IMG/VR virus record: IMGVR_UViG_3300025816_000064
Coordinates: 1-26,202 of that record
DNA length: 26,202 nt
Direction: 5' to 3' (one strand)
Origin: a virus
Of this stretch, positions 4,093 to 20,880 are shown one piece after another; position 1 is the stretch's first letter, and every line of letters begins with the position of its first letter. The notes beneath the pieces were generated by a model that was not told where the DNA came from, did not search any database, and was given only the letters and a program-made list of their open reading frames with translations. The position numbers and the translations under genes are program-made.

Positions 4093-4478
4093 TGGAAATG
4101 GATGCGCAGTTTCTGTTTCAAGTTGGAGCAGTAGTTGCATCACTGTCTGGTGCATGGGCATTAGTACGTGCACAGGTAAATACATTGAAGGCAACTCAAG
4201 AAGAAATTAAAGGTCATGTTGATGAGGTAAATAGAGAACTTGATGAAACAGAGAATAATGTAGCTGTACTAAGACAACAAATAAAAGTACTATCTGATAT
4301 TCTTAGTCCAGATAATCTCGCTGCTGAACATAAAAGAAAAGGTCAGGTTCAGGAACAAATTAAAAAATTACAAGAAGAAGTGACAACTTTACAACACATG
4401 CACAATGGTCGTCATCCTTTTATAGATGAACTAGCTAGCAGTCATCTTCAACGTAATCCTCATTCTCCACAGAAGTAA
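4092..4478 (+). CDS. Small membrane-anchored coiled-coil protein
   Basis: 128 residues. Residues 5-25 are a hydrophobic segment (FQVGAVVASLSGAWALV) that can span a membrane, and residues 27-105 are a long charged coiled coil with heptad spacing. The start forms a TAATG junction with the structural gene before it. It is the last gene of the rightward operon, and its last 44 bases overlap, tail to tail, the terminase small subunit on the other strand. The topology resembles an i-spanin, but a separate spanin pair lies 400 bases away, so a minor virion or ejection protein is as likely. Function unknown. Confidence 0.75.
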   Translation: MEMDAQFLFQVGAVVASLSGAWALVRAQVNTLKATQEEIKGHVDEVNRELDETENNVAVLRQQIKVLSDILSPDNLAAEHKRKGQVQEQIKKLQEEVTTLQHMHNGRHPFIDELASSHLQRNPHSPQK

Positions 4479-4884
4479 ACCAAGAGCATTTAAGAAACAT
4501 CTTAGATGCTCTGTCTTCTCCTAATATCTCTAAGCTATTAACTATCTCCTGTTCTAGTTCAGCAATAGATTTAACAGCTTCTTCTTCCTTTGTAGAACGA
4601 ATGCGGGACAATACCTCTAGTGCTTTGATTGCACTGTTGGTATGTCCTGCACTCTTAGCATAATTGTATTGGTTTTCTACCTCTGCAATAACGTCAATGC
4701 GTGTCTCAAGTTCCTTCTCAAGTTCCTCAATACGCTCGTTAATCTCAGGTCGTTGCTTTAGTCTATGACCCTGTGTATGTGCGGATACATCTGAATATCC
4801 TGCAGCTTTAGCAGCTTCAGTAGCATTACGGTACATCACATAGGCTTGACAGAACTTCTCCTGCTTTAGATTAAGTTCCTTCAT
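4435..4884 (-). CDS. terS: Terminase small subunit
   Basis: 149 residues. The N-terminal 60 residues match the small-terminase HTH region: LKQEKFCQAYVMYRNATEAA followed by AGYSDVSAHTQGHRLKQRP, the pattern of Terminase_2-type DNA-recognition domains. A charged helical stretch (about 55-110), which in this family forms the oligomerisation coiled coil, and an acidic tail follow. The protein would bind the packaging site on phage DNA and load the large terminase, which is not in this window. The ATG overlaps the o-spanin stop as ATGA. Its 3' end runs 44 bases into the convergent plus-strand gene. Sitting at the end of a lysis cassette is a known arrangement for a late gene. Confidence 0.8.
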   Translation of the reverse strand: MKELNLKQEKFCQAYVMYRNATEAAKAAGYSDVSAHTQGHRLKQRPEINERIEELEKELETRIDVIAEVENQYNYAKSAGHTNSAIKALEVLSRIRSTKEEEAVKSIAELEQEIVNSLEILGEDRASKMFLKCSWFTSVENEDYVEDDC

Positions 4885-5066
4885 TTACAAAACTTTTCCC
4901 ATGTAAGGTTATGACTTAGTATCTGACGAGCAGTATCGTTAGAGATAGAATCAGCATCACTGATAAGAATTGGAAAGGACCAACTACAGAACGCCGCCTC
5001 TCCTCCAACGCTTTCGCAACCGCTTAATAACATCACCGTCAGACATACGGCTAACTTCGTTTTCAA
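4881..5066 (-). CDS. Rz1-like o-spanin lipoprotein (TTG start)
   Basis: Read from the TTG at 5066, this is a 61-residue lipoprotein: a basic MKTK start, a short hydrophobic core and the lipobox LLSGC, with the lipidated Cys at residue 17. The TTG has AGGAAAG 8 bases upstream. The frame also runs upstream to an ATG at 5147, but that would put about 27 charged residues before the signal peptide. The mature part carries a pattern I associate with small Rz1-like proteins of alphaproteobacterial phages (ILISDADSISNDTARQILSH). It starts inside the i-spanin gene in another frame and overlaps it by 83 bases, the classic Rz/Rz1 nesting. Its role would be outer-membrane disruption after peptidoglycan breakdown. 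Confidence 0.75.
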   Translation of the reverse strand: MKTKLAVCLTVMLLSGCESVGGEAAFCSWSFPILISDADSISNDTARQILSHNLTWEKFCK

Positions 5067-5205
5067 TTTTATTTCTTTCCTGTGTATTCTTAACTGCCTG
5101 TTCAAGTTCTTTCTTCTGTGCATTATCTCTTCCTGCCTTAAACGCAAAGACTAAAGGCAGTATCTTTGTAAAGATATTTAGCACAGAAGAAAATAAAGAA
5201 AGCAT
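4984..5205 (-). CDS. Rz-like i-spanin
   Basis: 73 residues: an N-terminal hydrophobic anchor (about residues 3-22, SLFSSVLNIFTKILPLVFAF), then a charged helical region (25-60) predicted as a periplasmic coiled coil, ending in a very basic tail. This is the topology of an i-spanin, which sits in the inner membrane and pairs with the o-spanin lipoprotein. The o-spanin gene starts inside this one in a different frame. The start ATG shares a base with the holin stop (TAATG). The family was assigned from topology and context, since spanins share little sequence. Confidence 0.75.
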   Translation of the reverse strand: MLSLFSSVLNIFTKILPLVFAFKAGRDNAQKKELEQAVKNTQERNKIENEVSRMSDGDVIKRLRKRWRRGGVL

Positions 5206-5447
5206 TAGTCTACCTTCTCAGTTGTACCTTTAATAACCTCAACCTCTTCAGGTTTTACTTCAGGCTTTCCTGTTTCTTTGGCTTTACCAATGGTAAGACT
5301 AAGAAATTCTACAGCCTTGTATATTTTTCCAAGAACTGTATCAGGATCAGGTGTTTTAGTTCCTGCAATGATAAGACTTGCAATTGTAATAACACCAGTA
5401 ACAGTGCTAAGAATAACGTCTGAATTATTAGTAACAAGTTCAAGCAT
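5205..5447 (-). CDS. Putative holin
   Basis: 80 residues with one clear transmembrane helix (about residues 11-30, ILSTVTGVITIASLIIAG), then TPDPDTVLGKIYKAVEFLSL and a charged C-terminus. The TPxxDT...GKIY...IGKAK pattern is common in small membrane proteins next to spanins in alphaproteobacterial phages and is usually annotated as holin-like. A good SD (AAAGGAG) precedes the ATG. It is directly upstream of, and coupled to, the i-spanin and o-spanin genes, so holin is the natural reading. No endolysin is adjacent; it must lie outside the window or be unrecognised here. With one helix it would be a class III-like holin or pinholin. Confidence 0.65.
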   Translation of the reverse strand: MLELVTNNSDVILSTVTGVITIASLIIAGTKTPDPDTVLGKIYKAVEFLSLTIGKAKETGKPEVKPEEVEVIKGTTEKVD

Positions 5448-5458
5448 TTGATTCTCCT

Positions 5459-7756
5459 TTAAGCTGCCTGTTTAGTAATTAGATTAGCATAATAAACTTT
5501 ATCTGCTTGCTTTGAAGTTTTGAAAACTTCAGCAACAAGAGTGTTCTTACTATACATAAAGATATTCATTTCAATAGCATCATTGTCAAATAGTTTTTCA
5601 CAATCCTGTGCCATTGCAAGAAGTTCACCAGTAGTCCAAAACTCTGAACCGTTTGTCTCTACCTTCATGTACTTGTTTCTACCATCTTCTAACTTTTCTT
5701 TCAGATCAATAGCTGTCTCATCAGGGAATGAACAGTCAAAACCAAACAGATGAAAGTTTCTAAAGCCAAAGATATGCATCATGCCTATTGCTCTCATTGC
5801 TGCACAAGTACCACCATTAACAAACGTAGTGTCTTCAGGTACATTTAGTTTCTCATTGATCTTTAGACTCTTACCTTCTTGATTCTTTACTGTGTTAGCT
5901 ACTGCCTGTGAGTAAGCGTGCCATCCATACACCTGATCAGTCTTAGACTGCAGCAATTTTGTAACTGAAGGATCAGTCATTGATGCAATGAAGAACATTG
6001 TACTAGGATCAACCGTCTCAAACAGAGTGGACCGTACAACACCATGTGTACTTTCACCTTCAATAGGTCGAGGGTCTAGTATAACACATGCCCATGGTTT
6101 TATACCAGCCTTGAGCAGCTTTGGATAGCTATGCTTTACGCAGACAATTCGTCCATTTGTTTTCTTTTGTAGCTTCTTCAGTTCCTTAAAGTCAATAGAT
6201 GATCCACCAGATACAATGATAGCATGTTCGTCATGTACGTGACAGTTACGGATCATGTCCCAACTGCTGATAAGTTCTACATTCTTATTAATATTGTCAA
6301 CTATGTTATCCTTTGGTACAGAATCACGTGGCTGTACTACAATAGGTACACGCCTAAACTCTACAGGTAAATCAGGTAAGTCATCATCATTCAGTAGCAC
6401 TGCTAGGTGTGTATGTCCACCATCTTTTACTCTGTCCTGTGAAGGAAGAACTGTAATACGTTTACCCTTTAAAGACTTTACAAAACGGTTTACTGTCTGA
6501 TGTTTCTCGTCAACAATCTTTCCTTCCTGATCTTTGGAAAAGAAATTATTGAAGACAATAACAGGAACATGGTCAAGGTTATCATAGTCTGCCTTCTTTG
6601 TTTTCTCGCTGTTGCCACCATCAATGAATGCAAAGGATACATTCTTTAACTTACTACGGTGTTTCTTTAGTGTCTTCTTACTATCACCCTTGTACAAGTT
6701 AAAGGTAAACGTCTTATCTTTTTCTTTCATCTTCTCTGCAAATTCTGTAAGACGTTTTGTCACAGCTTCCAAGGCATTGTGTGCTTTATCGTTAAACTCT
6801 AACTCGTCTGTTTCTGTTGTTGCATTTTCAAATAGATCAAAGCCTGTGTAGTGTAGTGTATCAGTCTTCTCAAACGCAGCAAGGGACATTTCAATAGCAC
6901 GTCCACCATTCCATGTACCTACTTCTACGATACTATCAGTAGCATATGTACGTACCAGATCAGCAAGCTGACGATAGCGAGGAAGATTAACATCAGGTGT
7001 AACTTCTTCCTTAGATATTTTCTGCTTTAGATTACCCTTATAGTGTACCATATACTCAGATAGTGGAGAGTTGGTAAAGGCAGCAAGACCTTTTACATTA
7101 GGTGTTAGGTTCTGTGCCTTCATACCATGAGCAAGATATATTTTTAATAGTCGTTCAAAGATAAAACCATCGTGCCACTCACGATACGATACTACCTCAC
7201 CAATATCATAGCATCCTCGTAGGTCAGCTAATAGATAGTGAGGTGACTCATAGTCAAGATTGAAAGCAATAAAAGAAGTTTCACTATAGTCAACGTCTTT
7301 CCTACCTAAGTAAACCAACTCTGCTTTTTGGGAAACAAAGGTATCTAAATTTTTCTGAGAGAAAGGCTTAGTGGTTACTGTATCAGCATCCAACCAGATC
7401 ATCCATCCACCCTTTGCCTCTTTCTCACCAATCTCTAAGGATAGGTCAGTCATAGCATATACTTTGTGTGACCACTTGATAGCATCCATACGCCAGTTGT
7501 ACTGCATATTGCCACCCTCAGTACCATCATGGTCTTTCATTCTTTCTCTATAGTCAAGCATGTCTTGAACATCATTTAGATTACGATACTCAATAACTTC
7601 TGACTGTGGAAAGTCAGCTACTAATTCTTCAGGGCAGTCATGGTAGTATGCTATTAACTTTAGATCGTTCTTCCAAAACTTTTCCACTGACTCTAGCATA
7701 TTCTTAGCGTAGCTTACATAACCACTAGCACTAAATGATGTTACAAACTTAGTCAT
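5459..7756 (-). CDS. Three-domain glycosyltransferase / SAM methyltransferase-like / DUF115 (MAF-like) protein
   Basis: 765 residues from the ATG at 7756 (a GTG at 7765, with GGGAG nearby, is the alternative). Three parts are visible. Residues 1-245: a glycosyltransferase-like fold with WLDADTVT carrying a DxD metal/nucleotide-sugar motif near residue 124. Residues 255-460: a Methyltransf_24-like domain with motif I IVEVGTWNGG (about 276-285) and FIDGGNSEKT (about 377). Residues 500-690: a DUF115/MptE-like domain as in MAF glycosyltransferases, with AIIVSGGSSIDF, a VILDPRP strand end and FHLFGFDCSF. The gene overlaps the upstream glycosyltransferase by 8 bases. It probably builds or attaches a sugar to a virion or host surface protein. 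The domain calls are pattern-based and the substrate is unknown. Confidence 0.75.
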   Translation of the reverse strand: MTKFVTSFSASGYVSYAKNMLESVEKFWKNDLKLIAYYHDCPEELVADFPQSEVIEYRNLNDVQDMLDYRERMKDHDGTEGGNMQYNWRMDAIKWSHKVYAMTDLSLEIGEKEAKGGWMIWLDADTVTTKPFSQKNLDTFVSQKAELVYLGRKDVDYSETSFIAFNLDYESPHYLLADLRGCYDIGEVVSYREWHDGFIFERLLKIYLAHGMKAQNLTPNVKGLAAFTNSPLSEYMVHYKGNLKQKISKEEVTPDVNLPRYRQLADLVRTYATDSIVEVGTWNGGRAIEMSLAAFEKTDTLHYTGFDLFENATTETDELEFNDKAHNALEAVTKRLTEFAEKMKEKDKTFTFNLYKGDSKKTLKKHRSKLKNVSFAFIDGGNSEKTKKADYDNLDHVPVIVFNNFFSKDQEGKIVDEKHQTVNRFVKSLKGKRITVLPSQDRVKDGGHTHLAVLLNDDDLPDLPVEFRRVPIVVQPRDSVPKDNIVDNINKNVELISSWDMIRNCHVHDEHAIIVSGGSSIDFKELKKLQKKTNGRIVCVKHSYPKLLKAGIKPWACVILDPRPIEGESTHGVVRSTLFETVDPSTMFFIASMTDPSVTKLLQSKTDQVYGWHAYSQAVANTVKNQEGKSLKINEKLNVPEDTTFVNGGTCAAMRAIGMMHIFGFRNFHLFGFDCSFPDETAIDLKEKLEDGRNKYMKVETNGSEFWTTGELLAMAQDCEKLFDNDAIEMNIFMYSKNTLVAEVFKTSKQADKVYYANLITKQAA

Positions 7757-8486
7757 ATTGTTCACTCATCTCCCTGTATAATTCATTCCATTCTTTTGCA
7801 TATTGATTATCAATATCTCTTTTACCTTCCCAGTTTCTAAACAATGGTCCTCCTGTTGTAAAGTGTACACACTTAGGATCAATGTCTTCAGATGAATGAC
7901 CATCAAGCCAGTTCCATTCTTCAGATACTTGACTTACTGTCTCTGCCCAACACATACCATGTAACCAACTTCCGCTACTGGTGTTTACAGAAGACACAGT
8001 TAGTTCATTTAGTTCTGGATTACCACAGTTAAACAACATAAAACTTGACCAGTTCTTTCTAAAATAATTTTGTTGTACTTTATTTTTCATTTTATATTTG
8101 TCAGTAGGTTGGTACTTATGATGTACACAAGCTACAGAAAATTTTCTATTATAGAAGATATTAAATAATTTATTTATATCGTCTCTCATGTACATATCAC
8201 AGTCCATAAACAACGCATGTCCTTGATGTACATTCAGAAATGGTACAAGAAAACGTGTGAAACTAAACTCAGTAGAAAATGGTTTACCGTCAAATGAATC
8301 TACCTGCTGACCATCCTTTATAATTTTTGTTCGCCAGTATAAACCTGTTCGCCTTAAACTATCCTGTTTTAGTCTAACAATATTTACAGGTGATGAAGCA
8401 TATTTATTTATACTGTATTCAAGAACGTCACAGTAAGTTTTTTCTGTAGGGTCATAACCTATGTAAACTGTAGGAATACTACTCAT
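7749..8486 (-). CDS. GT8-like glycosyltransferase
   Basis: 245 residues from the ATG at 8486, which has AGGAAG 6 bases upstream; a TTG further up at 8504 is less likely. The N-terminus (IPTVYIGYDPTEKTYCDVL) is the usual start of small GT-A glycosyltransferases. FMDCDMYMRDDI at residues 93-104 holds the DxD motif (D95, D97) that binds Mn and the nucleotide sugar. A C-terminal WLDGHSSEDIDPKCVHFT stretch resembles the late His of GT8-type enzymes. It overlaps the acidic 78-residue gene before it by 8 bases and the three-domain glycosyltransferase after it by 8, so the two sugar enzymes are made together. Acceptor unknown. Confidence 0.75.
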   Translation of the reverse strand: MSSIPTVYIGYDPTEKTYCDVLEYSINKYASSPVNIVRLKQDSLRRTGLYWRTKIIKDGQQVDSFDGKPFSTEFSFTRFLVPFLNVHQGHALFMDCDMYMRDDINKLFNIFYNRKFSVACVHHKYQPTDKYKMKNKVQQNYFRKNWSSFMLFNCGNPELNELTVSSVNTSSGSWLHGMCWAETVSQVSEEWNWLDGHSSEDIDPKCVHFTTGGPLFRNWEGKRDIDNQYAKEWNELYREMSEQYD

Positions 8487-8715
8487 CAGTATCTTCCTCT
8501 TCAATCTTTTCTGTAAGTTCTTTAAATGTAGTAAACTGTGAAGGCACCATAAAATATTCTAGTGTTGTTAGCATAGCATTCTTTAACTCATCTTCAATCA
8601 GATCACTACTAAGATCATCTATTATAACTGTCTTTAATATTTCTACAACAAGATTATCACAGGTAGTAGTTGTTAAATCTATTTTAATTGTTGGTTCAGT
8701 ATCTAAAAAACTCAT
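8479..8715 (-). CDS. Small acidic hypothetical protein
   Basis: 78 residues, acidic, largely helical, no Cys pair or membrane segment. ATG at 8715 with AAAGGAA upstream. The start lies only 12 bases past the U-tract of the hsp20 terminator, leaving no room for a promoter, so this gene and everything after it depends on read-through or antitermination. Its 3' end overlaps the glycosyltransferase start by 8 bases. I recognise no family. Confidence 0.65.
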   Translation of the reverse strand: MSFLDTEPTIKIDLTTTTCDNLVVEILKTVIIDDLSSDLIEDELKNAMLTTLEYFMVPSQFTTFKELTEKIEEEDTDE

Positions 8716-8776: not shown

Positions 8777-9193
8777 CTACTTTATTGCGATCAACTTAGG
8801 TTGTTCTTCTTCAGGAACAACTTCTTCCAATGTAATAGTAAGAAGACCATCCTTTAAGTCTGCGTCTCTTACTTCCATAGTATCAGACAGGGAGAATGAT
8901 TTACGGAACTTACGTGCCGCAATGCCTGATACAATATAGTTTCTATTATCATTGCCATCTCTATCGCCAACAATATTAAGAATACTATCCTTCAATTCAA
9001 TTGAAATATTTTCTTTTGAGTAACCAGCAACAGCAAGTGTTAGCTTATAAAAATTATCATCCTTTTCTAAATCATGCGGAGGGAATGCACCAACATTACT
9101 TGGCACATGCTTGAACAAATCTTCAAAGGTAAATCCCAACATATAGTCTGGGAGTGTCATACGATTTTTGTTAATATAGTCAATAAAGTTCAT
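8777..9193 (-). CDS. Hsp20 / IbpA-like small heat shock protein
   Basis: 138 residues from the ATG at 9193, preceded by AAGGAG; the frame extends upstream to 9250 but that start has no ribosome site. The alpha-crystallin domain covers about residues 35-125: PPHDLEKDDNFYKLTLAVAG, YSKENISIELKDSILNIVGD, the IbpA-type GIAARKFRKSFSLSD and DGLLTITLEE. The PKLIAI end resembles the C-terminal I-x-I/V motif that docks oligomers. It would hold unfolding proteins in the cytoplasm during infection. Hsp20 genes are known in marine cyanophages and other marine phages. It has its own promoter (9251-9279) and terminator (8727-8764), unlike its operon-bound neighbours. Confidence 0.92.
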   Translation of the reverse strand: MNFIDYINKNRMTLPDYMLGFTFEDLFKHVPSNVGAFPPHDLEKDDNFYKLTLAVAGYSKENISIELKDSILNIVGDRDGNDNRNYIVSGIAARKFRKSFSLSDTMEVRDADLKDGLLTITLEEVVPEEEQPKLIAIK

Positions 9194-9250
9194 TGTTATC
9201 TCCTTGTTAAGCAAGTTAGTTTGGCACACCACTATGGTCGTACCATGCAC

Positions 9251-9287: not shown

Positions 9288-9854
9288 TTAAGTAAACTTT
9301 TCTCCTCTAAACCAACAGACAAATGAACATCGTTCACCTTCTTTTACTTTTGTAATACGATGATAGACAAAGGAAGGAAAGACAGCAATGCTGCCAGTTT
9401 TTCTCATATCTTTAAGTGTAGCAAACCTGTCTCCAGATTGAGGATGCACCCACTTCTGTACCTGTAAATCACCACCCTTAAACTCACTGTTAAGTGTGAC
9501 ACACACTGCCAGCTTTCTTCTGTAAGGATCAGAGGGTAGTTCTACGCCAGCATCCATGTGCCAATCGTAGAACTGTCCCTTGCCATAGAAGGAAATCTGT
9601 GGAGTTTCAAAACAATTTATGTGAAAGTTCCAGCCAGCTTCCTCGTTAGCTGTCTCTGCGTACAGTTGCAGAATGGAAGTTAGTTCAGGATTTTCTAACC
9701 AAGCAAGTCTACTATTTCTTACCTTTTCAAGTAGAACACTATTGCCATTCTGAGATACATCCGCTTCCTGACTGTCTAACTCCTTAGCAATACCTATTAT
9801 ACCGTTGCATAGTTCTTTTGGTAGTACCTCTTTATAAGTGTGATACGTAAGCAT
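9288..9854 (-). CDS. 2-oxoglutarate/Fe(II)-dependent oxygenase (PKHD type)
   Basis: 188 residues from the ATG at 9854, which forms TAATG with the RNR stop; a TTG at 9866 is the only longer choice. The double-stranded beta-helix iron site is visible: H99-x-D101 in YDWHMDAG and distal H165 in PSFVYHRI, with R175 in KEGERCSFVCWF positioned to bind 2-oxoglutarate. This matches the PKHD hydroxylase (PiuC-like) family, common in marine phages with unknown targets. The enzyme would couple 2-oxoglutarate decarboxylation to hydroxylation of a protein, nucleotide or small molecule. Translational coupling to RNR suggests, but does not prove, a role near nucleotide metabolism. Confidence 0.88.
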   Translation of the reverse strand: MLTYHTYKEVLPKELCNGIIGIAKELDSQEADVSQNGNSVLLEKVRNSRLAWLENPELTSILQLYAETANEEAGWNFHINCFETPQISFYGKGQFYDWHMDAGVELPSDPYRRKLAVCVTLNSEFKGGDLQVQKWVHPQSGDRFATLKDMRKTGSIAVFPSFVYHRITKVKEGERCSFVCWFRGEKFT

Positions 9855-11539
9855 TAAACTCCGCAACTCCCTCCGTGTCCAGTAATATCACAAATGTCAT
9901 GTGTCTCAAGTCCTTCCTCAAACTCTTCACCTAGTTTATCAACAGCTTCAGTATAAGGTACTGATGTTAGTGGTTGCCCACCACGACATGAATCAGGGTA
10001 TACAGTAAAGCCACGTAAGCGATGTGCGTAAGAGGCAAGAGTATCAGTAAAATCCACAACAGTATCTTCATTGTTTAGCTTACTTCCCCACGATGGTAGA
10101 TTAATAGTAGAGGATATGGACATATCTACATAGTCTTGAACATCAGCTTGGAACTTAATACGTCTTTTGTAATCCCCTGCAAGATCAAGAGCAGACTCAA
10201 TTTTATCTGGTTTAGTTCCATAAAGATCAATCAATTCTTGTGCTGCACTATCTACTACATACTGGTAGTGCCAGCGTGTACCACCTTTTAAATACCTACG
10301 TTTATATGCTACAGCAAAGATTGGTTCTACTCCTGTGCTTGTACCCGCAAGAATACCAATGCTTCCTGTAGGTGCAATAGCACGGTTAGCTACTGGTCTA
10401 CTAATATCCATTTCATCAGCAGTCTTTTTAGAAGTATCATCAGTCACTCCTTTATAAACTCCTAACCATTGGTGTAGTTCATCAGTAACTTCATACTTAT
10501 AACCTCTCTTAATTAACCACTCATGCATACCCATTAGACCTAGACCCAACCTACGATTCTTCGTCCGTACTTTATAGACTTTATCATAAGGTAGCTTTGC
10601 TTTAAGAGTACCGCACATAAGAAACTTAGTAGCTAAGTGAACAATATCTTTAAACTCTTTTAGATTATCTACTCTTCCAAGGTTGACTGAACCTAAGTTA
10701 CATACATCCGAATCGTCCTGCGAAGTAACTTCAGTACATGCATTACGTAGTGTTTCATTTTCTTTATCAAAGAAGTTAAAAGAGAATCCCGGTTCGGCGG
10801 TTTGTAAGGCTTGTCGTACATTCTGCTTAAATGTAGTCCCAACATCACCTGTCTCCCAATAGTTAATTAACCATTCAGTATCGTAGTTCACGCTGATGTT
10901 TGTCATGTCCAGAGGAGCTATGTAGTTAAAATCTTGTTCCTTTACCTGACCGATAGTAAAGCCTGTGTTACCAACGGGCATGTCATACCAGTTCTTACTG
11001 ACCAGAAACTTTTCTACATCAGCATGTTTCCAGTTCATACTGGCATAGATAGCTGACCTACGACTACCACCCTGCATTACCCTTCGACCAATTTCGTTGA
11101 TCATTAGCATCTTAGGTATAGGACCAGAAGCAAGACCACCAGTACCTGACAACACTCTACCTTCCTCGCGGTATACAGAGTAGTCAACACCAATACCACC
11201 TCCTGTCATCAGACATGACTCACTCTTCCATGATAGGTCTGCCCAATCTTCACGTGTATCTTCTTCTGCTTTCAAAAGATAACAGTTGTTAAAGAACTTG
11301 TTAGGTCTACCAGCATAGTACAAGTACCTACCACCGGGAATAAATTTTAGATCAGTTATATATTCTTTAAGCTGATCTATCTCATCTTGTTTTAACTGAG
11401 GAGAACAAACATCTTCTACCAGTACAGAGGCTAGGCTTGCCCATGTTTCACAACCATGATGTGCATACTTATGTTTGAAGATATCCTCACTAAACTTGGA
11501 ACGGAACATTGGATTTTCATTGGATCGAAATGTAGGCAT
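9854..11539 (-). CDS. nrdJ: Class II (adenosylcobalamin-dependent) ribonucleotide reductase
   Basis: 561 residues, reducing ribonucleotides to deoxyribonucleotides for phage DNA. The disulfide-forming pair is C86 (FNNCYLL) and C280 (DVCNLGSVNLG). The radical site is N266-A-C268-T-E270, a NACTE variant of the usual NPCGE. Other family blocks are GLGLMGMHEWL and PTGSIGILAGTSTGVEPIFA. Cys550 and Cys559 in the C-terminal tail can shuttle electrons. No NrdB-type small subunit or class III glycyl-radical motif is near, and the short length fits the B12-dependent class of marine phages, so activity would rely on host cobalamin. The ATG has a good SD (AAGGGAG). The stop overlaps the oxygenase start. 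The class was assigned by motifs and the missing partner. Confidence 0.88.
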   Translation of the reverse strand: MPTFRSNENPMFRSKFSEDIFKHKYAHHGCETWASLASVLVEDVCSPQLKQDEIDQLKEYITDLKFIPGGRYLYYAGRPNKFFNNCYLLKAEEDTREDWADLSWKSESCLMTGGGIGVDYSVYREEGRVLSGTGGLASGPIPKMLMINEIGRRVMQGGSRRSAIYASMNWKHADVEKFLVSKNWYDMPVGNTGFTIGQVKEQDFNYIAPLDMTNISVNYDTEWLINYWETGDVGTTFKQNVRQALQTAEPGFSFNFFDKENETLRNACTEVTSQDDSDVCNLGSVNLGRVDNLKEFKDIVHLATKFLMCGTLKAKLPYDKVYKVRTKNRRLGLGLMGMHEWLIKRGYKYEVTDELHQWLGVYKGVTDDTSKKTADEMDISRPVANRAIAPTGSIGILAGTSTGVEPIFAVAYKRRYLKGGTRWHYQYVVDSAAQELIDLYGTKPDKIESALDLAGDYKRRIKFQADVQDYVDMSISSTINLPSWGSKLNNEDTVVDFTDTLASYAHRLRGFTVYPDSCRGGQPLTSVPYTEAVDKLGEEFEEGLETHDICDITGHGGSCGV

Positions 11540-19998: not shown

Positions 19999-20310
19999 TT
20001 AGAAGCTGTCCGTAAATCCAAAGTCAGGATACTCTTTCAATACCTTTTTAAGTTTTGGTTTGAATGACTTACTCTTTGTTTCTAACATATGGATTGTACA
20101 TCCAAGTTCAAAGCACAGATAGTCAATGTCTTCTTCTCTGAACATCTGCTTTGTGTTATCTACATAGTCGAGAGCAAGATCATCAATAGAAATTTTCTTG
20201 ATTGGTTTTACACCATAGTCTGCATCAAGATAGAAGGCAACATACAGACCATCGTTATGCATCTCTAGTTGCACACCAATGTCTTCAATCTTAAAGCTAC
20301 CTTTGATCAT
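19999..20310 (-). CDS. Hypothetical protein
   Basis: 103 residues, acidic first half and Lys-rich C-terminal part (KSKSFKPKLKKVLKEY). The ATG at 20310 overlaps the deaminase stop (ATGA). The beta-rich start GSFKIEDIGVQLEMHNDGLY gives no family match I recognise. Coupled to the deaminase, so made with the nucleotide enzymes. Confidence 0.65.
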   Translation of the reverse strand: MIKGSFKIEDIGVQLEMHNDGLYVAFYLDADYGVKPIKKISIDDLALDYVDNTKQMFREEDIDYLCFELGCTIHMLETKSKSFKPKLKKVLKEYPDFGFTDSF

Positions 20311-20705
20311 AACTGTTCTAGTCCTTTCTCTGTTGTGTAATAAACTTTACGTAGACCAAACTCTACGATGCACCTATAACATCCCTTACATGGTTTTGCA
20401 AGAGTTGTTTTGAATTTGTTTGTACGTTCATGTTCTCTCTTCACACGTACAACAACCATCGTACACCTAGACAGGTCATCACCTACTGTACGTACTGCGT
20501 TCTTGATTGCAGCTACCTCTGCGTGCAGGTGTATGGCATGTTCATGCTTGCCATACTTGGCTTGAAACGGATCAGTCTTGTACGAATTAACACCAAGACC
20601 TACAAGATTATTCTTATACCATACACCTGCCGCAAGACGATAGCAACGAACTGGATCAGTGATATCTTCTGCCACTCTGGCAAGTAGATCAATCGCCTTT
20701 TCCAT
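20307..20705 (-). CDS. dCMP/cytidine deaminase-like enzyme
   Basis: 132 residues from the ATG at 20705 (an ATG at 20729 is possible but lies well inside the previous gene with no ribosome site). The zinc site is H61-A-E63 (IHLHAEVAAI) and P105-C106-x2-C109 (AKPCKGC), the HAE/PCxxC signature of the deoxycytidylate/cytidine deaminase superfamily. The HAIHLHAE context is dCMP-deaminase-like, so conversion of dCMP to dUMP for ThyX is the best guess. Extra Cys residues (C112, C21) may be structural. The start overlaps the previous gene by 17 bases. Confidence 0.85.
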   Translation of the reverse strand: MEKAIDLLARVAEDITDPVRCYRLAAGVWYKNNLVGLGVNSYKTDPFQAKYGKHEHAIHLHAEVAAIKNAVRTVGDDLSRCTMVVVRVKREHERTNKFKTTLAKPCKGCYRCIVEFGLRKVYYTTEKGLEQL

Positions 20706-20880
20706 TCGGATACTCAATGTTCTCTCCATGTTGTTTGAGTGTAGCGATAAAGTTAGCATGATCCATTAACACATTTAGAATAGATTGTCTAGGTACTTTT
20801 ACTTCCCTTGCATTCTTTCTTGCTTTGTCTACTGCCTGATGCAATAGGTCAAAGTCTTTGTCACTTGTGTACAGTTTCAT
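20689..20880 (-). CDS. Small hypothetical protein
   Basis: 63 residues from the ATG at 20880, which is preceded by GAGGAG almost in contact; a GTG at 20913 (74 residues) is the alternative and would overlap mazG. Helical and basic in the middle (KARKNAREVKVPRQSILNVL). It lies between mazG and the deaminase and overlaps the latter by 17 bases. No family recognised; start uncertain. Confidence 0.55.
   Translation of the reverse strand: MKLYTSDKDFDLLHQAVDKARKNAREVKVPRQSILNVLMDHANFIATLKQHGENIEYPNGKGD

Follow-up and report, generated by a model that had tools for sequence, protein, structure and literature searches.

A phage protein that joins GT-A glycosyltransferase, methyltransferase and MAF-like domains, with a methyltransferase segment exchanged as a cassette

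Results

Gene and Neighborhood

The window, the whole stretch of DNA that was analyzed, is a 26.2-kb uncultured virus record from IMG/VR. It contains a T7-like phage gene set (endonuclease I, DNA polymerase A, primase-helicase, ThyX, and ribonucleotide reductase), as well as genes for a Cas4-type exonuclease, Hsp20, and a 2OG-Fe(II) oxygenase. Megablast of the window against annotated phages gave no match, and its DNA polymerase is closest to those of Pelagibacter phages HTVC103P/104P/115P (47–49%). The gene of interest, for which an earlier note had given the correct coordinates but no strand, is a 765-residue open reading frame (ORF) on the minus strand, with its ATG at 7756 and its stop at 5461–5459. 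The plus strand over 5459–7756 has many stops in the given frame. A longer form starting from a GTG at 7765 was discarded, for homologs give it no support. The features of the locus are as follows.

5459..7756, minus strand: fusion protein, GT-A + methyltransferase + MAF/MptE (ORF, translation, Pfam, 139 distinct full-length homologs)
7007..7756, minus strand: domain 1, GT-A glycosyltransferase, residues 1–250 (predicted fold and invariant motifs)
6365..7003, minus strand: domain 2, class I SAM methyltransferase of the Methyltransf_24/TylF type, residues 252–464 (Pfam, fold, residue states)
5462..6364, minus strand: domain 3, MptE-like/DUF115, i.e., MAF central domain, residues 465–765 (PF01973, PseD model, isolated-domain model)
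6317..6859, minus strand: exchangeable cassette, residues about 300–480, second half of the methyltransferase plus linker (nucleotide identity between relatives)
7749..8504, minus strand: GT8-like partner gene (PF01501, E 3.4e-4, below cut-off; PHROG 28018, E 1.4e-44)
5205..5447, minus strand: small hydrophobic ORF in the holin position (cluster 20 in relatives; PHROG 9685, weak)
4881..5147, minus strand: Rz-like spanin (PHROG 1275, E 3.5e-16)
4435..4884, minus strand: terminase small subunit (PF03592, E 1.2e-16; in 67 of 81 contigs by clustering)

Pfam matches and predicted folds both support the three-domain fusion that the earlier note had proposed. Conservation extends over the full length of the frame in 139 distinct proteins, with pairwise dN/dS mostly between 0.01 and 0.15, so that this architecture is not the product of a chance reading frame. 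The protein is without a transmembrane stretch.

The fusion has a constant partner. The 3' end of the GT8-like gene overlaps the fusion ATG by 8 nt in the window, and all 80 loci that could be read at this point have such a gene upstream, which bears out the pairing noted earlier from the window. In seven loci of one clade (L038, L040, L042, L045, L052, L059, and L063), an HNH homing-type endonuclease gene of 169–171 codons sits between the two. Since the spanin and terminase small subunit genes follow the fusion, its earlier placement in a lysis-packaging block is a fair description; the slot of the small hydrophobic ORF is filled elsewhere by other small hydrophobic holin-like genes. The recurring order is ribonucleotide reductase (with or without an R2-like gene), 2OG oxygenase, Hsp20, GT8-like gene, fusion, holin-like gene/spanin, terminase small subunit, and then convergent tail genes, with optional genes dropping out in some relatives. 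The Hsp20 chaperone gene (8777–9250), inside the block, is shared by roughly half of the relatives and occurs in HTVC104P too. The ribonucleotide reductase (561 residues, 9854–11539) gives a partial, below-cut-off match to adenosylcobalamin-dependent NrdJ models, and an R2-like subunit gene adjoins its counterpart in other lineages of the group. A dCMP/cytidine deaminase-like protein is encoded at 20307–20759, within the replication block.

Distribution

We found the full-length architecture in 139 distinct uncultured viral proteins in IMG/VR, where pattern scans returned about 300 related stretches per query and an alignment scan at least 597. Each of 20 long contigs carries exactly one MptE-like domain, always within an ORF of 764–808 residues. 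A pattern scan of GTDB genomes gave no relative. INPHARED yielded no fused relative and only the glycosyltransferase domain, in Pelagibacter phage Mosig and podophage ct7QV12; separate searches of INPHARED with the methyltransferase and MAF parts returned nothing. In BFVD, the automatically named UniProt entry A0A6J7X5Q0 from an uncultured Caudovirales phage can be aligned to almost the entire model (31% identity, E 8.8e-56) and looks like a full-length member, whereas other "MptE-like" or "methyltransferase domain" proteins of uncultured Caudovirales have only one or two domains in common with the fusion. A search of the literature found no functional study or description of the fusion family, which is thus present in databases but, as far as we found, apparently undescribed. 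The fusion frame is broken by a stop or frameshift in two loci (L012:4105-4513 and L068:8331-9915), which may be assembly errors or real losses.

The Three Domains

Domain 1 has a single, subthreshold Pfam match, to GT2 (E 0.035), and its AlphaFold model matches GT6 alpha-1,3-galactosyltransferase, blood-group GTB, and LARGE1. It contains a DxD motif (D123-A-D125) and an E193-W194-x-D196 motif, in which D123, D125, E193, W194, and D196 are unvaried across the 139-row set. By its modeled fold and DxD motif, domain 1 is a GT-A enzyme, with no CAZy family by sequence. For all three domains the structural matches are those of AlphaFold models, and sequence-profile searches against PDB chains gave no significant relative.

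Domain 2 of the window scores E 2.6e-5 with Methyltransf_24 (PF13578), 0.8 bit under the cut-off. This family is matched in all 32 representative relatives (best 5.4e-12) and TylF (PF05711) in 9 of them. The AlphaFold model of the domain has structural matches in TrmR and in the mycobacterial sugar O-methyltransferase MeT1, and the motifs expected for SAM binding are present: motif I (E278-x-G-x-W-N-G-G), D307, and D379. The metal-dependent sugar O-methyltransferases TylF/NovP/MycE and MeT1 have the same fold and the same Methyltransf_24/TylF Pfam match, from which the phage domain differs in being fused inside a larger protein and in having variants without putative metal ligands. In MycE-type enzymes, the Mg ligands and histidine are D275, H278, and D304 (PMC9275233). 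The phage residues D379, H382, and D403/D404 are laid out similarly, with the D379/H382 spacing equal to that of D275/H278, and by this analogy form a putative metal site. No substitution at H382, D403, D404, or G421 occurs in 123 of the 139 proteins, which thereby have the metal ligands and DxxH histidine of a metal-dependent O-methyltransferase, as judged from this analogy. The window does not: D379 is kept, and N382, N403, and N404 replace H, D, and D. It is one of 16 proteins, a sample value because scans kept the best 80 loci per query, in which D403/D404 has become NN (NG once); H382 is also N in nine of these, the window among them. We refer to the two states as DD and NN. The window methyltransferase is therefore probably inactive or altered, if the analogy with MycE holds. 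The earlier note had named motif loss in homologs as evidence against its reading; the glycosyltransferase and MAF motifs turn out to be invariant, whereas the methyltransferase metal site has been lost in the 16 proteins above.

Domain 3 is matched by MptE-like PF01973 over cut-off in the window (E 7.6e-17) and in 32 of 32 relatives. Its motifs KHSYP (541–545), LDPRP (560–564), STHG (569–572), and WTTGELLAMAQDCE (707–720) are invariant among homologs. The PseD model NF050051 gives 27.9 bits (E 8.7e-7), far under its 670-bit cut-off, so that by sequence domain 3 is a distant relative only of that model. Folded alone with AlphaFold (pTM 0.81), the domain finds as its best match the MAF structure 5mu5 (E 7.3e-8, 302 of 310 residues, TM 0.57, 14% identity), followed by archaeal HPPK/MptE (M. 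jannaschii, 206 columns) and SteA, with the CstII sialyltransferase ninth. The C-terminal DUF115/MptE-like fold anticipated in the earlier note is thus borne out in the model, and MAF and MptE share one fold. According to this model, the protein has the PF01973/MAF_flag10 domain with a CstII-like fold that is central to MAF.

Bacterial MAF acts on flagellin, and at its N-terminus is a degenerate Rossmann domain in which weak methyltransferase motifs can be seen (PMC11339370). The phage protein shares with bacterial MAF (5mu5, PseD, C. botulinum Maf) the MAF_flag10/PF01973 domain and the CstII-like fold. A Rossmann domain precedes it in each case, which in the phage protein is a methyltransferase, a possible homolog of the MAF N-domain that gives no Pfam match to it. 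The phage protein differs in its extra N-terminal GT-A domain and in having a recognizable, often intact methyltransferase. It also has no long helical domain at its C-terminus, and genes for flagellin or nonulosonates are absent from its surroundings. It ends 45 residues past the last conserved motif, without the C-terminal helical bundle of MAF, and no flagellin is found among the genes scanned around the fusion. Since it scores under the model cut-off and has neither the nonulosonate context nor the helical domain, we do not file the protein as a MAF flagellin glycosyltransferase. An alignment of the full model to 5mu5 (557 columns, rmsd 16 Å) was rejected as evidence that the methyltransferase domain corresponds to the MAF N-domain.

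Exchange of the Methyltransferase Cassette

A comparison of close relatives showed that they exchange a segment of the methyltransferase in cassette fashion, which the earlier note had not foreseen. Nucleotide identity between L004 and L085 is 0.93–1.00 up to residue 300, drops to 0.64–0.77 at residues 301–480, and returns to 0.86–1.00 afterward. At the protein level, L004 shares with L010/L085 97–98% identity in the glycosyltransferase domain and 94–95% in the MAF domain but 67–68% over residues 301–455. Since synonymous sites diverge as well, with dS rising from 0.10/0.27 in the flanks to 1.55 in the cassette, the segment has been replaced by recombination rather than merely having changed faster as protein. 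Conversely, L004 and L086 are 97% identical in the cassette and 89% in the glycosyltransferase domain. Two more clades show the same swap pattern (L026/L027 vs. L035, which is the contig of L094; and L310 vs. L315/L318/L320). Among 247 close pairs, which are not independent, the methyltransferase is swapped in 15, all from these three clades and every one DD vs. NN; the glycosyltransferase is swapped in 8, every one DD vs. DD, and the MAF domain in none.

Changes between the two states number at least four as forced by the methyltransferase tree and at least six by the flank tree. These trees suggest about four origins of NN, given an ancestral DD state, and its movement between backgrounds. 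One common source for the NN alleles of distant clades was rejected, as they do not cluster and are no more identical to each other than their flanks are. Between NN forms, dN/dS in the cassette is 0.04–0.14, close to that of the flanks and a sign of continued purifying selection, and E278, G280, G285, D307, and D379 are invariant in all forms, NN included. Separate NN clades share L321F (three of four) and loss of G421 (three of four), and an equivalent set of DD sister rows has no rare residue in common; random draws of four DD rows, with up to 62 shared rare residues, are too confounded by relatedness to provide a strict null.

Sugar Supply

A GDP-mannose 4,6-dehydratase (Gmd) scores above its curated cut-off in 6 of 35 contigs tested, all of one clade, and where examined its gene lies a few kilobases upstream of the fusion on the same strand. 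Four of these six contigs also encode a DegT-family protein; the one examined has its best match in ColD/WbdK (E 5e-95) and carries SHH at the position of the PLP lysine of aminotransferases. The loci concerned are L431:5342-7592, L432:9303-10322, and the contigs of L114, L115, L116, and L124, in which Gmd, with or without the DegT-family gene, is inserted upstream of the Cas4-type exonuclease gene. By homology, these genes predict GDP-6-deoxy- or 3,6-dideoxysugars. Known MAF enzymes use nonulosonic acids, which these phages do not make, since NeuB is absent from 20 long contigs. Lineages without Gmd must depend on host sugar nucleotides. Of the compact "synthesis-and-transfer machine" suggested earlier, sugar synthesis is no function of the fusion protein, which includes no nucleotide-sugar enzyme, although the one clade just described has Gmd, and partly ColD, close by.

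Discussion

The explanation we favor, to which we assign as a whole a probability of about 0.5, is that a lineage of T7-like marine phages uses the fusion as a multi-site glycan enzyme, soluble and cytoplasmic, which builds a virion or host glycan much as chlorovirus A064R does but with a MAF-type transferase added. In the first step, the C-terminal MAF-type transferase, of GT42/GT29-like fold, would place a sugar on Ser/Thr of its target, most likely one of the structural proteins of the virion. Extension by further sugars would fall to the GT-A domain at the N-terminus and to the GT8-like partner translated along with the fusion, and the methyltransferase domain would cap the glycan by O-methylation. 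The DD or NN state would set methylation, with NN phages, that of the window included, leaving the glycan unmethylated or using the domain differently. In the window phage, where the metal site is lost, the fusion is then probably not a working three-activity machine.

The closest functional parallel is A064R of PBCV-1, in which one viral polypeptide likewise combines a SAM methyltransferase with two glycosyltransferase domains. It builds and methylates the end of the major-capsid-protein glycan, and natural loss of its domain 3 leaves that glycan unmethylated (PMC9614988). Exchange of the phage cassette could diversify the glycan much as these natural A064R mutants do. A064R differs in its domain order (GT-GT-MT), its lack of a MAF domain, its origin in a virus of algae, and its product, an N-glycan made with UDP-L-rhamnose (PMC9614988), and the likeness, at least two glycosyltransferase domains plus a methyltransferase in one viral protein as modeled here, is drawn as one of working rather than of descent. 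Together with the precedent of mycobacteriophages, which glycosylate their capsid and tail tube (PMC12363180), A064R favors a virion target, as do the lysis and packaging neighbors and the solubility of the protein. Several points weigh on the other side. The genes are at the end of the replication-gene strand rather than with the tail genes. A change of host O-antigen would account for the GDP-deoxysugar genes equally well. These sugars are also not the nonulosonic acids of known MAF enzymes, and the match to 5mu5 is of low identity, with a TM of 0.57.

Gmd and ColD together make GDP-colitose for O-antigen in known bacteria, and the presence of Gmd and, in part, of a ColD-like GDP-4-keto-6-deoxymannose 3-dehydratase with His for the PLP lysine in one clade suggests that the enzyme might instead act on the infected cell, building or capping one of its glycans (O-antigen or flagellin) so as to prevent superinfection or change the cell surface, with the virion unglycosylated. 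The usual action of MAF on bacterial flagellin (PMC11339370) and the position of the gene after replication genes fit such remodeling, which we nevertheless regard as somewhat unlikely because the protein is soluble, its neighbors are a holin-like gene, a spanin, and a terminase, and no polysaccharide export or polymerase gene was recognized among the neighbors scanned. Nor need domain 3 be a transferase: PF01973 is named for MptE, and the second and third structural matches, M. jannaschii HPPK and SteA, would suit an MptE-type kinase/pyrophosphotransferase or an inactive scaffold, leaving only the glycosyltransferase domain active, with or without the methyltransferase. We consider this improbable, given that 5mu5 aligns over 302 of 310 residues compared to 206 for HPPK, that the NCBIfam match is PseD and not an MptE model, and that the neighbors are glycosyltransferases, with no folate gene recognized in the window. 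Finally, some phage glycosyltransferases decorate modified DNA bases, and a 2OG-Fe(II) oxygenase is encoded nearby (9288–9866). That the fusion decorates a modified base of the phage genome is very hard to credit, since the oxygenase, by its matches to 2OG-FeII_Oxy_3 and PHROG 61, is of an auxiliary type common in phages, the thymidylate synthase is an ordinary ThyX, no base-hydroxymethylating enzyme was found, and the sugar genes of relatives are for GDP-deoxysugars.

How the cassette should be read is a separate question. Our tentative proposal, to which we give somewhat less than even odds, is that it is a dimorphic, recombining element, with an intact (methylating) and a metal-site-less (nonmethylating or re-tasked) form that arose repeatedly and is swapped, acting as a population-level switch of the virion or host-surface glycan. 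As for the NN form itself, its residues point to a retained but altered role, probably without metal-dependent methylation and possibly in SAM, sugar, or structural binding. Alternatively, NN cassettes might be decaying, nonfunctional remnants, which would challenge only the altered role. The replacement of the putative Mg ligands and catalytic His would be expected of a remnant, and bacterial MAF offers a comparable case, since its N-terminal Rossmann domain is degenerate and carries methyltransferase-like motifs (PMC11339370). Such decay seems unlikely to us in view of the flank-like constraint among NN forms, the five invariant residues they keep, the L321F and G421 changes shared by independent origins, and the movement of NN cassettes by recombination. 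The NN phage forms may even parallel how the degenerate N-domain of MAF arose, although this is conjecture by analogy.

If the favored explanation is correct, these widespread and uncultured marine phages produce a glycan of their own, protein-linked or on a surface, by means of one multi-site enzyme. That enzyme would be the counterpart of A064R among bacterial viruses and would employ a MAF-type transferase, a type known elsewhere from bacterial flagellin. Likewise, a cassette with repeated, coordinated loss of its metal site would amount to natural on/off variants on near-identical backgrounds, which would make the effect of glycan methylation on phage fitness directly testable.

Unfused relatives offer a glimpse of how the fusion may have been assembled. 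Pelagibacter phage Mosig EXVC030M (Mosig_00188–00191) has a homologous glycosyltransferase domain (26% identity) adjoining a homologous GT8-like gene, but these are separate genes, found among methyltransferases that are FkbM (PF05050) and not Methyltransf_24, with no MAF domain nearby. Of 82 Mosig-type loci, 69 have the unfused glycosyltransferase homolog together with this GT8-like gene. In podophage ct7QV12, the glycosyltransferase adjoins a methyltransferase and a DegT sugar aminotransferase directly before the terminase. We infer from these unfused arrangements that the glycosyltransferase/GT8-like pair is probably the older unit, which the methyltransferase and MAF domains joined in the fusion lineage. 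The methyltransferases of Mosig and ct7QV12 were checked as the source of the fused domain and rejected. The Mosig glycan operon (L139:10620-16487) comprises two FkbM methyltransferases, the glycosyltransferase, the GT8-like gene, an annotated sulfotransferase, and another glycosyltransferase, beside ribonucleotide reductase genes.
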